Positions 9,781 through 33,651 of a stretch of DNA of 35,156 nucleotides are shown piece after piece. The first letter of the stretch is position 1; each line of letters begins with the position of its first letter. The DNA is from Verrucomicrobiota bacterium (GTDB taxonomy: Bacteria > Verrucomicrobiota > Kiritimatiellia > SS1-B-03-39 > UBA6053), in NCBI GenBank assembly GCA_020831635.1, contig JAFIGC010000045.1, positions 1-35,156 on the forward strand, given 5' to 3'. Below the pieces are notes generated by a model. The model was given only the letters and a program-made list of their open reading frames with translations, searched no databases and was not told the origin of the DNA. The position numbers were made by a program, and so were the translations under genes.

Positions 9781-12700
9781 TCATGGTGTCCAGGGGGATG
9801 GGAGAAAGTAACTGATGTTGTCATTTTTTAACATATAGACTGCCCCGCGGTCACGCACAAAAAGAGGCGATGCTTTGACATCCACGCGGAATACATCGGC
9901 GGAACGAATCCAGCGCTCCGGCGTAAACCAATCGTCGAGGTAATATGTGGTGTAAGTGCGGCCCGTCAAAGTGGAGTCCCCATTCCAAATCCAGAACTGG
10001 TCGGCCTTAACGTAATCGGGGTGGCCTGTGAACCCGTTGTCCAAGGTCATCTCCCGCTCAAGGGCGGATTGCGTGATCGGATATCCAGCCCCCACCAAGT
10101 TTTTCCCCGCGCACAAAGGCCTCCTGAAAGCATTTTGGCGGACCTGACCATAGGAAATCAGAACTTTTTGACTCTTTGAATTCACGAATACCGCGTGTCC
10201 GGGAGGAATGACCCGGCCTCCCTGGTCCACCAGATTGGGGTCTGATGTCAAAGCCCAACGGGTGTTCGCTCCATCTTCATAAAGGAAGTAACACTCAAAA
10301 GTCGTTCCGTTCCAAACCGTGATTTGGTCTGCGTCCGACGGACTGACACCTTCTTGCATTACGTCAACCGGAAACAAACTGTCCAAAGTCTTGTGACGGT
10401 ACAAAGAGCTGGTGGCACCCTCCAAACCTGCGGGCAGCGGCCCGGTGAGGGTGTTGAAAGGGCCGTCCAAGCCGCAAAGACTGGAGGCCTCGGCGAGGGT
10501 GAGCACGTTGTTTTCAGCGGACACGACATCGAAGCGATGCCCCTCGAAATCCCCGTTGGTGATTTCCAGGTAGTACGCCACGCCGGACTCCAGCACCTCC
10601 GCGTTTCTCGACAACACCACTTCCGGCGACACCTCGTCAACAAAGGTGATTTCCGCCGTGAGCGGGCTGCATTCCAGGAAAGGATTGTTGTAGGAACGGC
10701 ACTGGTTGGTTTCAAAGTCGCTGATCACCCAGCCGGATACTTCGCTCAGGACCACCTCATCTGCCACCTCGTCCCCGGAGGTGTCGGTTTCCATGCGGAT
10801 GCGCACGAACCCAGAGTCGCCAATCAGGCCGGTCAGACCGCGGATGTCGGGAATGGTCACGGTTTCAGTTCCGTTGCTGTTACCCATGACCGAAGTATTG
10901 GAGCCATCGAGCGCAATCGCCCCCTGCCACTGCACGGGATCCGCCAGTGCGGAGGCGTATTCCAGATACCAGGTGACGTTGGGAGGCAGGTCCGCTAGCC
11001 GGACAAACGACCCAATCAGGGAGTCGCCATTGTCCAGGGAAAGACAGAAGTCGATGTCCTCCACGATCCCAAGCTGTGTGTTGACGAAATCCTGGTCCTC
11101 GACCTGGGAGCCGGGCAGGACGTCAATGGCGGTGATGTCCCCGTTGATGGTGAGGTCACCTCCGTCCACATCGTCTACCGCGTGAAAACCGGAGGGAACG
11201 GTTTGTGCGACTTTGTAAAAGCCGGTCGGGAGATTCGTGAACTCATAGAATCCATTCTCGTCCGTAACCGTGGTGATCGGGTTGTTGGAACCATCGAGGA
11301 CCGGGTCCCCTTCCAAATCGAGCAGCTCCACCGTCACCCCCTCGTGGGGAATGTCGCCAACATTGTTTCCGGTGGTATCGATGAAAATCGTGCCGCTGAT
11401 GGAGCCGAATTCCGCGTTCACGAAGTCCTGCTCCGCCGTGGTTTGTCCAGGCAGCACAGTGATCAAATCCACATCCCCAATCTGGGTGAGATCGCCACCG
11501 TCCACATCGTTCACCGCGACAAAGCCCGCGGGAACGGATTGCACGACGCGGTATTCACCGGGAGGCAGGTTTTCAAAAACATAAAAGCCATTGGAATCGG
11601 TGTCGGTGGTGCCCAGAGAATTGTTCGCTTCGTCGAACAGTTCAACCTGTATTTCGGCATGGGGAATGTTCCCCGCGTTGTCTCCCGTGGTGTCCAAACG
11701 GATGGTGCCGCTGATGGCACCCAACTGGGTGTTGACAAAATCCTGGCCGGTGACGTCAGTTCCGAGCTCAATGGTAATGACTTCCTCGTCTCCGTTCACG
11801 GTGAGGTTTCCGCCATCCACATCGTCAATGGCGATGAAACCCGTGGGGACGGTCTGACGCACCTGGTAATCTCCAGGCGGCACATTGGTGAAGGAGTAGA
11901 ACCCGTTTTCGTCTGTGGTCACGGTGATGGGGTTGTTGTCACCGTCCAGGATTTCCTCCCCGTCTCCGTCCAAAAGCGTAACCAGAACCCCTTGCTGCGG
12001 GGTGTCACCAGTTCCATTTCCCGTGGTGTCCAAAAGGATGGTGCCACTGATGGACCCCAACGCCTGGTTCACAAAATCAATTCCGGTAATGTTGTTCCCA
12101 AGGTTCACAGTAATGAGGGTGACATCCCCAATCACGGTGAGGTCGCCCCCATCCTCGTCGTTGACCGCCACAAAGCCGGTCGGAACCAACTGCCTGACTT
12201 TATAGTTCCCCGGCTGGGTGATGGGAAACAGGAAACACCCGAAATCAGAGCAGGAAAACGTCGTGGCCAGAACGTTGTCATCTTCATCCAACAATTGCAC
12301 GGTCACCCCCCCGTGCGGGATGTTGCCTTCCAAATTCCCGGTGGTATCAATGGTGATGGTGCCGAAAATAGACATGTTTTGTGCGAGGAGGAAATCCCGG
12401 CCGTCCACATCCTGTCCCGCGAGGGTAAACTCGATCAGGTCATCCCCATTGGCGGACCCGTCCGCGTCCAGGATCGGGGTGGTGCCGGAGGGCGGCACCA
12501 CAACCACGATGTAATCACCGTCGGGAAGGCCGGTGAATTCATACTCACCATCTTGGTCCGTGGTGGTGGAACCCACGAATTCATTGGGATCGGCAACGCC
12601 GTCCCCGTTCAAATCACGGTACAGCCGCACTTCAGTGCCCTCCGAGGGGGTGTCGCCGGGGAATCCGGAAAATTCACCGTCTGTATTTGTGTCAACCCAA

Positions 12701-15700
12701 ACCGTCCCGGAAACCGCCGACAGGGTTTCCGCGTTGTTGATAAGGAAGTCCTGGTCGTCAAAACTTTCTTCCACAACGGACAATTCGATCAGGTCATCCC
12801 CGTTGTCAGACCCGTCCACGTCCAGGACCGCTGTGAAGTCAGCCGGAGTTTGGGACCGGACCTCATAGTTGCCGGGCGGAATCCCGATGAAGGTGTAGCT
12901 TCCGTCCAATTGGGTGACGGTGGAGGCAAGTAGATTGTCGTCGCCGTCGTAGAGTTCCACCACCACACCCGGAACCACGACGTTATTGGAAGTAAATTCC
13001 CCGTCGTTTTCCGCGTCGCGATAGACCGTCCCCGTGACCACATGGAAGCCCCAGCGATAGTCTTCGACCTCCCCGTTGGAGGCCTCGCCCGAAAAGGCGA
13101 GTTCAGGAATCAAGGGTTCGGTGGGAAGGATGCGGAACCGGGAAAACAGGAAGGTGGAGTCCAAGGGAAGATCCTCTGGAACCAGGGTGCCGGCGGGAAC
13201 ATCGAAACTGAACGTGTAGGTGCCGGTGGTGACCGCCTGGCTCAAAACCAGCTCTCCCGCGTCAATAAAATCCCCGTCAATGTTGAAGTCAATGAAGCCG
13301 ACGAGCCAGCCGGTACCCACCACGTCCACGCGCACGCTGCCGCCGTTTGAACCCTCGGACCAAATTCCGGTGACAAACACGCCATCGTCGAAGTCATCTG
13401 CGTCGGCGTTCGGAGAAGGCTGCCCGTTGGGTTCCGTGTTCACGTCTTCGCCCAGATACAAGGTTGGGTTGTCGGGATCCGGTACAATGTGCCGCGCCCC
13501 GTTGGGCAGCAGGGTTATGGAGGCGTAAGCCTCGGGCAGGTCGCCGAAGTCGTATTCCACCACGGAACGGAACGCGAAGTCCATGTTGGTGATTTCGTCG
13601 TCCGCAGCCACCCACATGAAGGCGCCGGTAGTGTGACCCTGGCTGTTGGATGTGATCGACCTTCCATCGGCGGGATGATCATTCACCCCGGGCACGCTGG
13701 TAATCACAAGATTGCCAATGGGCGGCACCATGGAGACAATGTAGAAGTCCGTGTCTGGCAGATTAGTGAAGCTGTAGTCGCCATTGGTGTTCGTGACGGT
13801 GCTGCCCAATAATGTCAACACGCCCGTTCCGAGACCATCTGCAGGATCGTCACCCTCCCACGCGTAAATAAACACGCTCACATTGGCAAAAGCGACTTCA
13901 TCGGCCGCCACGCCCGTGGGGTTCAGTCCGTTGAGGAGACCGTCCTCGGGGTCACCATCCAATCCGATGGTGCCGCTGAACGAGTTGGTGCCAAAGAAAC
14001 GGTAGCCGAAGTTGACCTCCTCGTTGTCGGCGGTCCAGGCGGTTCCGCCAATGGTGGAGATGTTTCCGGAGCTGATCACCACTTCCTCGGCCACGTCGTC
14101 GAGGGTTCCGTCGGGGTCAACCGTCTGCTCGTAATTGGCGGGGAACGGGAAATCGGGGTCGTCCGTCACCACCACCACGCTGTAGGTGCCGTCGTCGAGA
14201 CCGCCAAAGGCGTACTCGCCGTTTTCGTCGGTGAAAGTGGTGGCAATCGGATCGGGGTTGCCAAGCTCATATAGTTCCACGAGAATGAAGGGTATGCGGG
14301 GTTCTTCCTCGCCCACCAGTCCGTCGTCGTCAAAATCCACCCAGAGGGTGCCGGCGATGACCCCGCCGGGAATGAAGTAGCCGAAATCGGCTCCCATGAA
14401 GGTTTGGCCCTGGGCGAGGGTGATCGCGTAACGTCCGTCGCAGCCCACCGCGAGGGGGTCGGAGCAGGGCAAACCGTCGTTGTCGGGATCGGCGGAAATA
14501 AAGGAGCCCGCGGGGAGGGATGTTTCGTCCACGCGCACCTCGTAGTTACCCGGATCGAGGTCTTGGAAGACGTAAAACCCATTCGCGTCGGTTGTCGTAG
14601 TGGCAAAAAACAAGTTGTCACGGTACAGATCCACGACCACACCAGGGATCCCGGGTTCGTTCGTGTCCTGGACCCCGTTGCGGTTCACGTCAAAAAAGAT
14701 GGTATCACCGATGGCCCCGGCGGGATAAATCAGGGTGTCGGCGGTGTCGGACCCGCTGTTTGCGGGACTGCCGTCGAGGAATTGCGCACCATTGACCGAG
14801 GCAATGTTGGTGGTGGTGATCGAGGGACCTGCCAATTCATTGGCGGTGAAGTTCACGGTGACCGACGAACTGCTTTCCGGCGCGATCGGACCGATGTTGT
14901 TCCAGGTCAGCGTGCCGACCGAACCGATGACCGAGGTGCTGTCCGGTGCGGGGTTGGCGCTGACAAAAGTCAGCTCGTCCGCGTTGTACGTGTCGGTGAG
15001 AGGAACCAAGGAGAGAGTGTTGGGGGAAACCGTGTCATTGGTGGTGAGACTGAACCGCACTCCTGAAAGGAACAACGTTCCGGCAGTTGCTTGGTTCCCA
15101 CCTCGATTGGTTTCAAGTTGGACCGAAAGGTTCGAGGGGTTTCCGAAATCCGACCAGGCCCAGGGAGATTTGGCGGATGTCACATTGATCGAAATCACAG
15201 TGGCTCCCGCGGATGTGGTCGGCAGGGCTTGTAACGTGGCGGAGGAAACGGAAAAGGCTTGCAACAAGGTGCCGCTCACATTGTTGTACAAACGAACGTC
15301 AAGCGTGTCCTGTGCCTCAAATTGATTCTGCCTGTAAGCTCCCACAAGTTCCAAAACCACGTTGTTAATGGTTGCGGGCGAACCAGAGGGTATTCCGAAA
15401 TTTCTGACCCCAATTGCCTTGGTGGGATTAGGAAATGTGGCGCTTGTAAAGGACGAGGGTGTATTGCCCTCAATGTTGTCTCGGTTCAGCCAAGTTCTAC
15501 TTGATTGTGTTAAAGTATAATTCGTATCCAAGGCGTTTGCGAAGCCACTTACCACCACGTTCTCCACAACATTCGGATAATTATTGCTCACGGTGATGTC
15601 GTAGGTGACGTCCCCGCCCTCGCGGACGATCTCGGTGCCGGTCTTTTCCACCACCAGGGTGGGGGCGAACCCGAAGTCATTTCCTGTGGAGTCCCCCCCC

Positions 15701-25234: not shown

Positions 25235-25295
25235 TTGCAAGACAACCTGTACAATTTTCAGGTTCTGGCAAGTGAAATGAAGAAAATAATGCGGA

Positions 25296-25457
25296 CCTGA
25301 ATCCGTGAGATATTTGCAAAGAAGGCGTGCAAGATCATGGAGCGAAAGGGTTTGTCGGGAACCGAGGCATACCCTTGCGGTCTGTCGAGCGTTCCCGACA
25401 ATCCCTTGCAGCCCATGAGATTGTGCGGATTCACAGCAAAGATCTCACGGACTCAGG
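25296..25457 (-). repeat. 162-bp structured palindromic element, copy A
   Basis: Terminal inverted repeats of 22 bases (25296-25317 and 25436-25457, two mismatches) enclose an inner stem: an 11-bp perfect pairing of TTGTCGGGAAC with GTTCCCGACAA around a ~29-base loop. Copy B at 32042-32203 has the same length and about 88% identity. It ends six bases from the stop of the Na/Pi cotransporter gene, so it sits in that gene's 3' region. No coding frame fits it. Orientation is assigned from the neighbouring genes because the element is nearly symmetric. Confidence 0.85.
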
Positions 25458-25463
25458 GCGGGC

Positions 25464-30036: not shown

Positions 30037-30074
30037 GAAACAGAACGCGAGTTCCGATGACACGGCTCGGACCA

Positions 30075-30179
30075 GGCGATCTACGGCGCCCGAACAACTG
30101 GTCTTAGTGCTGCTGCCTTCCGGCCCTGACACGGTTCGTCCGTGTCCGTCGCATAGGGCCCGGCCGTCAACGCCGCGCC
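30075..30179 (-). ncRNA. ffs: Small bacterial SRP RNA (4.5S type)
   Basis: The minus strand contains the near-invariant domain IV tip: 'GTGTCAGGGCCGGAAGGC' followed by 'AGCAGCACTAAG'. This holds the GGAA tetraloop and the asymmetric internal loop bound by Ffh. Outer strands pair (GGCG and CGGCG at the 5' end with CGCCG and CGCC at the 3' end), giving a hairpin of about 105 nt with no Alu domain. Ends are estimated from this pairing and may be off by several bases. It lies directly upstream of dnaX, a position seen in several bacteria. Confidence 0.9.
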
Positions 30180-32010: not shown

Positions 32011-32040
32011 GTTATATGCTGGATTTCCATGAATTGTCAA
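32011..32040 (-). promoter_or_regulatory. Strong sigma70-type promoter for rplU-rpmA-obgE
   Basis: Minus strand: perfect TTGACA (32040-32035), 18-base spacer, TATAAC (32016-32011), five of six to consensus. It begins one base after the end of repeat copy B, so the -35 box abuts the element. Confidence 0.8.
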
Positions 32041-32041
32041 G

Positions 32042-32203
32042 CCTGAATCCGTGAGATATTTGCGTTGAAGGTGTGCAAGATCATTCAGCGAAAGGAATTG
32101 TCGGAAACCGAGGCATACCCTTGCGGTCTGTTGAGCGTTTCCGACAATTTCTTGCAGCTCATGAGATTGTGCAGATTCAACGTAAAGATCTCACGGATTC
32201 AGG
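32042..32203 (-). repeat. 162-bp structured palindromic element, copy B
   Basis: Same length as copy A and about 88% identical (roughly 19 differences, counted by eye). Its 22-base ends (32042-32063 and 32182-32203) pair with two mismatches. The inner stem pairs TTGTCGGAAAC with GTTTCCGACAA; the G-C to A-T change relative to copy A is present on both strands, and a second compensated change lies in the stem extension. The loop 'CCGAGGCATACCCTTGCGGTCTG' region is identical in both. It lies 28 bases after the avtA stop and directly before the rplU promoter. Confidence 0.85.
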
Positions 32204-32231
32204 TCCAGCTTATGAACAAGGAAAAAACCAA

Positions 32232-33509: not shown

Positions 33510-33576
33510 TTTTTGATCATTCTTGAGGAACGCGAAAATCCCTTCCAACATTTGAATTTGTGCGGACGCCAAACAA

Positions 33577-33617
33577 AAATCTCACGGATCAAGTTTCACC
33601 CTGAATCCGTGAGATTT
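33577..33617 (-). terminator. Hairpin built from two repeat-element ends; probable secG terminator
   Basis: AAATCTCACGGAT (33577-33589) pairs perfectly with ATCCGTGAGATTT (33605-33617). The bases at 33600-33615 are identical to the first 16 bases of the 162-bp elements, so this is an end-only version with no interior. On the minus strand it follows the secG stop by about 35 bases, and the stem continues into a short T-rich run (TTTTTGTTT), as in an intrinsic terminator. Confidence 0.65.
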
Positions 33618-33651
33618 CCGATTTGAGTCCGTAAAAGGGAAGGGAAATGCC

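Follow-up and report, generated by a model that had tools for sequence, protein, structure and literature searches.

The 162-bp repeat that lies twice in the window (the whole analysed stretch of 35,156 nucleotides, contig JAFIGC010000045.1 of a Verrucomicrobiota bacterium, assembly GCA_020831635.1) is a MITE, a small transposon. We put at roughly 70% the probability that it is moved in trans by an IS1380-family transposase and that the fold of its interior is kept in the lineages that spread, likeliest as an RNA that aids the element itself. Hairpin MITEs with RNA effects are already known and the new part is the depth to which the fold is conserved, together with its strand bias.

Two copies of a folded repeat in the window

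The preliminary description of this DNA reported a pair of copies of equal length and about 88% identity. Our comparison confirmed this, with 162 bp in each copy and 143 of the 162 positions identical (88.3%), while the 100-bp flanks of the two copies match at a mere 20-21%. The features are as follows, with bit scores from the covariance model R1 described below.

25296..25457, plus strand: MITE copy 1, full length (R1 167.3 bits on the plus strand, 94.4 on the minus strand)
25296..25317, plus strand: left terminal inverted repeat of copy 1, its outer 17 bp identical to the end of the sister-species IS1380 insertion sequence (IS)
25436..25457, minus strand: right terminal inverted repeat of copy 1, from sequence comparison
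25351..25404, plus strand: conserved inner stem and apical hairpin of copy 1, core AGGCATACCC...GGTCTGTCGAG, corresponding to helices 4 and 5, which covary in alignments A2, A5 and A6
25291..25295, no strand: left half of the decayed 5-bp target-site duplication of copy 1, GCGGA
25458..25462, no strand: right half of the same duplication, GCGGG, a 4/5 match to the left half
32042..32203, plus strand, orientation as copy 1: MITE copy 2, full length, 162 bp (R1 160.1 bits on the plus strand)
32037..32041, no strand: left half of the decayed 5-bp duplication of copy 2, TCAAG
32204..32208, no strand: right half of the same duplication, TCCAG, a 4/5 match to the left half
33558..33637, no strand: relic composed of the decayed right end of one copy (...ATCTCACGGAT) and, after it, the left end of a second copy (CCTGAATCCGTGAGAT)

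The relic was recognised from the inverted-repeat pairs I2/I3 and its sequence, and a scan of it with R1 gave no full-length model match. The plus strand of copy 1 is the better-folding or 'sense' strand (-93.4 kcal/mol against -83.0 for the minus strand), and its fold lies far from that of shuffled sequences (-47.2 +/- 4.2, z -11). A compensated change in the inner stem, GGGAAC/GTTCCC in copy 1 against GGAAAC/GTTTCC in copy 2, is real as first described and so is a second one in the stem extension, from G-C to A-T. The 22-bp inverted ends are likewise genuine although within each copy just 20 of the 22 positions match, and pairing is not perfect in both copies as had been proposed, the outer stem of copy 1 having mismatches. 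What had been taken for an invariant loop is a 26-base run identical in the two copies, but it folds into a small hairpin at the apex and its sequence differs elsewhere in the family. Elsewhere in the window we observed a bacterial small SRP RNA (30067-30165, minus strand, 65.9 bits) and diverged repeats of ~93 nt spaced 315-354 nt apart (11119-12198 and 12389-12835), which may belong to a gene encoding a repetitive protein.

The repeat as a MITE family

The proposal that the repeat is a mobile non-autonomous element is borne out by its terminal repeats, its 5-bp duplications and the IS1380 IS of a sister species, whose ends match. It is short and noncoding with no transposase inside, has ends in common with an autonomous element and occurs in many dispersed copies. 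Among 40 copies of the window genome (G000) target-site duplications of 5 bp are perfect at 12 and match at four of five positions at 15 more, and 5-bp duplications also surround the elements of G009, G431, G433, G477, G557, G094 and G559. No Rfam family matched at its gathering score over the element, the mir-584 match, which at 24.4 bits falls well short of the gathering score of 80, being dismissed as hairpin noise. Searches of plasmids and phages returned no copy, and viral contigs searched for the core or the genus-type end pattern gave no match.

G000 is a draft of 6.0 Mb in 308 contigs, 96.5% complete, and as a lower bound it holds at least 40 full-length copies at 90-100% identity (40 scored out of 162 candidates). 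The end motif occurs 206 times at up to three mismatches, against once in the control, and the exact core CGAGGCATACCC is found in ~50 places; the genome has dozens to about 100 copies. Several contigs terminate within the element, in keeping with a repeat at which assembly breaks off, and other copies are truncated or internally deleted. Long repeats at contig ends were considered as a helper IS and rejected since these are copies of the MITE itself, at which the assembly breaks; lone ends and forms of 42-55 bp, considered as separate mobile families, are truncated or internally deleted copies that have no duplications. All four genomes examined of the window genus carry the element. A variant of 173-174 bp, ~12 bases longer, was seen in two species of the genus (L089:9809-9982, L105:9301-9473 and L067:1501-1674), with the extra bases in the 3' arm in both G000 copies.

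IS1380-family elements as the presumed helper

The CCT... ends and the 5-bp duplication guided a search for transposases of the IS1380 family. In G003, a sister species (MAG Verrucomicrobia bacterium Super_Day4_Bin.15), a frame of 451 aa scores 294.8 bits against NF033539 (cut-off 180) and belongs to an IS of 1,676 bp with ends CCTGAATCCGTGAGAT and duplication TCAAT, its terminal repeats being identical to the outer 16-17 bp of the window-genus MITE. Related IS1380 elements in other families have ends CCTGAATCCGT likewise. Members with matching ends were found in G003 and, beside their own MITEs, in G022, G421, G431 and G557. The MITE ends track those of the resident IS (GTGAGCT in G557, GTCAG in G022), and the two ends of the G421 MITE, GTGAAAGAA/GTGAATAAAA, are the two differing ends of an IS remnant in that genome. 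Judged by these matching ends and the duplications, the MITE is probably moved in trans by an IS1380-family transposase.

No such transposase was found in the G000 draft or in G001, G002 and G009, so in these genomes the helper is either absent, lost or not assembled; longer IS-like end pairs in the examined part of G000 included none with an IS1380 transposase. Origin of the interior by internal deletion of an IS was rejected, as the match is confined to the ends and the model finds no hairpin in the IS loci. G022, a genome in two contigs, has at least 123 nearly identical copies of 163 bp (L121, L141-L170), which is a recent burst, together with ~11 IS1380 transposase copies, most of them with internal stop codons. 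A Spirochaetia MAG (JAQIBN010000220.1, L116:2264-3396) contains an IS1380-like element of 1,133 bp. Each of its ends reads CCTGAATCCGTATAAA, ACTAA flanks it on either side, and its transposase reaches 54% identity in the best-matching segment.

Relatives across the phylum

Of 346 genomes of the class, 5 contained elements that fit the end pattern at a spacing of ~150-180 bp, as did 10 genomes in a phylum-wide sample of 388; the controls gave no match, and G022 alone accounted for 123 copies. Seven lineages (the window genus, G009, G431, G477/G557, G433, G421 and G022) have size, fold and apical core in common and arms that have diverged. The preliminary description had proposed a covariance-model search of related genomes, and model R1 detected the element in 19 of the 388 genomes, in 15 genera, including lineages outside its training set (G559, G013, G085, G094, G467/G572 and G426); the weakest three of the 19 (G587, G492 and G590, at ~43-45 bits) are less certain. 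Little of the arm sequence is still shared among the 19 genomes, but pairing persists in ~90% of cells.

Elements that combine these ends with a different interior served as controls (G533, G559 loci L187 and L188, and viral contigs L185 and L186). They score 30-38 bits on both strands and were rejected as relatives, being other MITEs that have only the ends in common. At L165:2642-2804 of G022 the same hairpin core lies between quite different ends (CCCGGATAATTCATCA) with an apparent 4-bp duplication, TTAG, and the ends of the two G426 copies differ as well. The G022 locus suggests that a core might be exchanged between sets of ends.

Compensatory change supports one fold in independent lineages

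Alignment A2, of 21 rows, yields a consensus fold of 46 pairs, and double changes occur in 27 of them. Cells pair in 91.1% of cases against 76.3% after shuffling and at most 49% when partners are slid, and covariation is 0.427 against 0.170 in shuffled alignments (0/500). Held-out copies aligned alone (A6) give the same kind of fold, with 54 pairs of which 41 show double changes and covariation of 0.605 against 0.224. Individual pairs in these MAFFT alignments are possibly misplaced; the overall fold is independent of any single one. Compensatory changes therefore support one fold in independent lineages, and selection on a folded strand, first suggested from two copies, is supported far beyond them by this phylum-wide covariation and by the one-sided G-U mismatches described below.

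In order to locate this selection we separated the variants of the 40 G000 copies into those private to one copy and those common to two or more, small counts from one genome. Private variants are equally frequent at paired and unpaired sites and their transitions keep or break pairs at 14:13, whereas for shared variants the ratio is 9:0 (shared versus private transitions, Fisher p 0.014; all variants, p 0.004). Shared variants that break pairs number 9 of 27 and are mostly transversions. The preliminary description had regarded substitutions that break the stems as often as they keep them as evidence against a selected fold, and this pattern appears in the private variants but not in the shared ones. 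Selection thus seems to act on the spreading lineage and not on every inserted copy.

A probable folded single strand

Strand preference was assessed without folding, by aligning each 5' arm to the reverse complement of the 3' arm. On the sense strand G-U mismatches outnumber A-C mismatches 43:11 (p 1e-5) in the first seven lineages and 48:11 (p 1e-6) in six held-out lineages, from which G488, of the same genus as a training genome, was left out; these p values are indicative, as the lineages share ancestry and the model score decided which strand was taken for the held-out ones. The sense strand is the more stable one in every lineage tested, by 7-27 kcal/mol. Private mutations in G000 comprise 7 C-to-T and 13 G-to-A changes, and with no C-to-T excess a mutational cause of the G-U bias is unlikely. 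The one-sided mismatches point to a folded single strand, and on these sequence data that strand is most likely RNA.

Tolerance of G-U (as G-T) exists in single-stranded DNA as well, and the same MITE might use its fold as a DNA hairpin, recognised by the transposase or by host factors during replication or transposition. Such a role would suit an element that is mobile as DNA and whose invariant U-A steps in the stem, together with the apical core, resemble a protein site. We regard it as unlikely, however, because double-stranded ends are the presumed substrate of IS1380-type DDE transposases and the IS itself lacks this structure, so that transposition as such does not need the hairpin.

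Genomic context and a proposed role in the host

A function at the level of the host, in which each copy acts as a 3'-UTR stabiliser, terminator or sRNA for its neighbour genes, was among the first suggestions for the repeat. It draws on the very stable fold of one strand, on the position of both window copies downstream of genes and on MITEs such as NEMIS that affect mRNA via RNase III (PMC10969869). Both window copies do lie 3' of a minus-strand gene as described, but they lie equally 5' of the next gene. With genes called by a simple longest-ORF rule, 34 copies divide into 11 convergent, 11 tandem, 9 divergent and 3 contig-edge cases, not far from the intergenic background of 25/50/25% (convergent/tandem/divergent), and in tandem gaps 4 copies have the same orientation as the genes and 7 the opposite. 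A promoter scan of the element gave no match and the single terminator-like match is on the minus strand across the left edge of the element where 0.3 are expected, leaving nothing convincing as an intrinsic terminator or promoter. The lack of bias in gene context and the action of selection on the spreading lineage, private mutations being neutral as to pairing, argue against the 3'-UTR or terminator role, and we consider a host-level RNA element improbable. Antisense pairing of the MITE core with the transposase mRNA was rejected too, the longest complementarity being 8-10 nt and near that of shuffles.

Other proposed origins of the hairpin

Long quasi-palindromes are known to undergo arm-to-arm correction, and hairpin template switching of this kind could create compensatory changes with no selection at all. 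This correction would clear mismatches symmetrically, whereas here G-U exceeds A-C by ~4:1 on one strand in many lineages, wobble pairs are kept at fixed positions and the private mutations show the spectrum given above, so that we find this explanation very hard to sustain. An origin of the interior as a REPIN-like hairpin, belonging to RAYT (IS200-like) transposases and fitted with IS1380 ends later, is hardly credible. In its favour, three copies adjoin RAYT (Y1_Tnp) genes (L089:9809-9982 in G000 C232, L279:1558-1722 in G426 C64 and L269:1501-1663 in G587). Against it, duplications are present, the RAYT-adjacent copies seen are just these three, the G000 one was inserted at the stop codon of the RAYT gene in the manner of IS1380 and is flanked by the duplication TTTAA, and RAYTs are numerous in G426 and G587, most of them without the hairpin.

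Discussion

In the mechanism that we favour, a MITE mobilised in trans with a selected interior fold, an IS1380-family transposase would recognise the terminal repeat CCTGAATCCGTGAG... and insert the element into mostly A/T-rich sites, making the 5-bp target duplication. The interior is a hairpin of ~130 bp with a conserved apical core and not a deleted piece of the G003 IS; it folds better on one strand and seems to be kept across the phylum by compensatory change in lineages that are still spreading. Most likely the sense strand is transcribed, and its folded RNA (folded single-stranded DNA being the less likely form) would aid the survival or spread of the element, possibly through a protein that it binds or by helping the host to tolerate a new insertion. 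The benefit of the fold to the element would fall at or before insertion, and once inserted a copy would decay neutrally. More tentatively, and at odds well below even, the core may be a mobile noncoding RNA found across the phylum that aids the spread of its own transposon, has been kept by covariation while the Verrucomicrobia diverged deeply, and can travel with different ends.

The element resembles IS-mobilised MITEs, e.g. Chunjie and QMITE (review PMC10969869), in being short and without a gene, with IS-related terminal inverted repeats, target duplications, many intergenic copies and a transcript predicted to form a stem-loop. It differs from them in that one fold can be traced by covariation over many families of a phylum, and that review makes no mention of IS1380 or Verrucomicrobia. 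NEMIS/Correia elements of Neisseria are hairpin MITEs as well, whose transcripts are RNase III substrates (PMC10969869), in another host and with another presumed helper. TIMEs are also non-autonomous and contain conserved core segments, for which an influence on the structure of transcripts has been suggested, but have Tn3-type 38-bp ends and usually one copy per genome; the available part of their description contained no covariation evidence. The presumed helper belongs to the family of ISEcp1 and other IS1380-family ISs; ISEcp1 generates 5-bp duplications and can carry adjacent DNA along with it (PMC2887853). Unlike these ISs the MITE has no transposase and has just its ends in common with the IS found here. 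We found no IS1380 MITE described in Verrucomicrobia in the open-access literature searched.

The interiors of MITEs are usually viewed as filler between transposase sites. Here the fold of the interior is better preserved than its sequence, on one strand and over many families, and was apparently selected during spread and not after insertion. A covariance model of the R1 type can be used to look for the element elsewhere, and the family offers a testable case of a non-autonomous bacterial transposon that may depend on its own folded RNA (or single strand).
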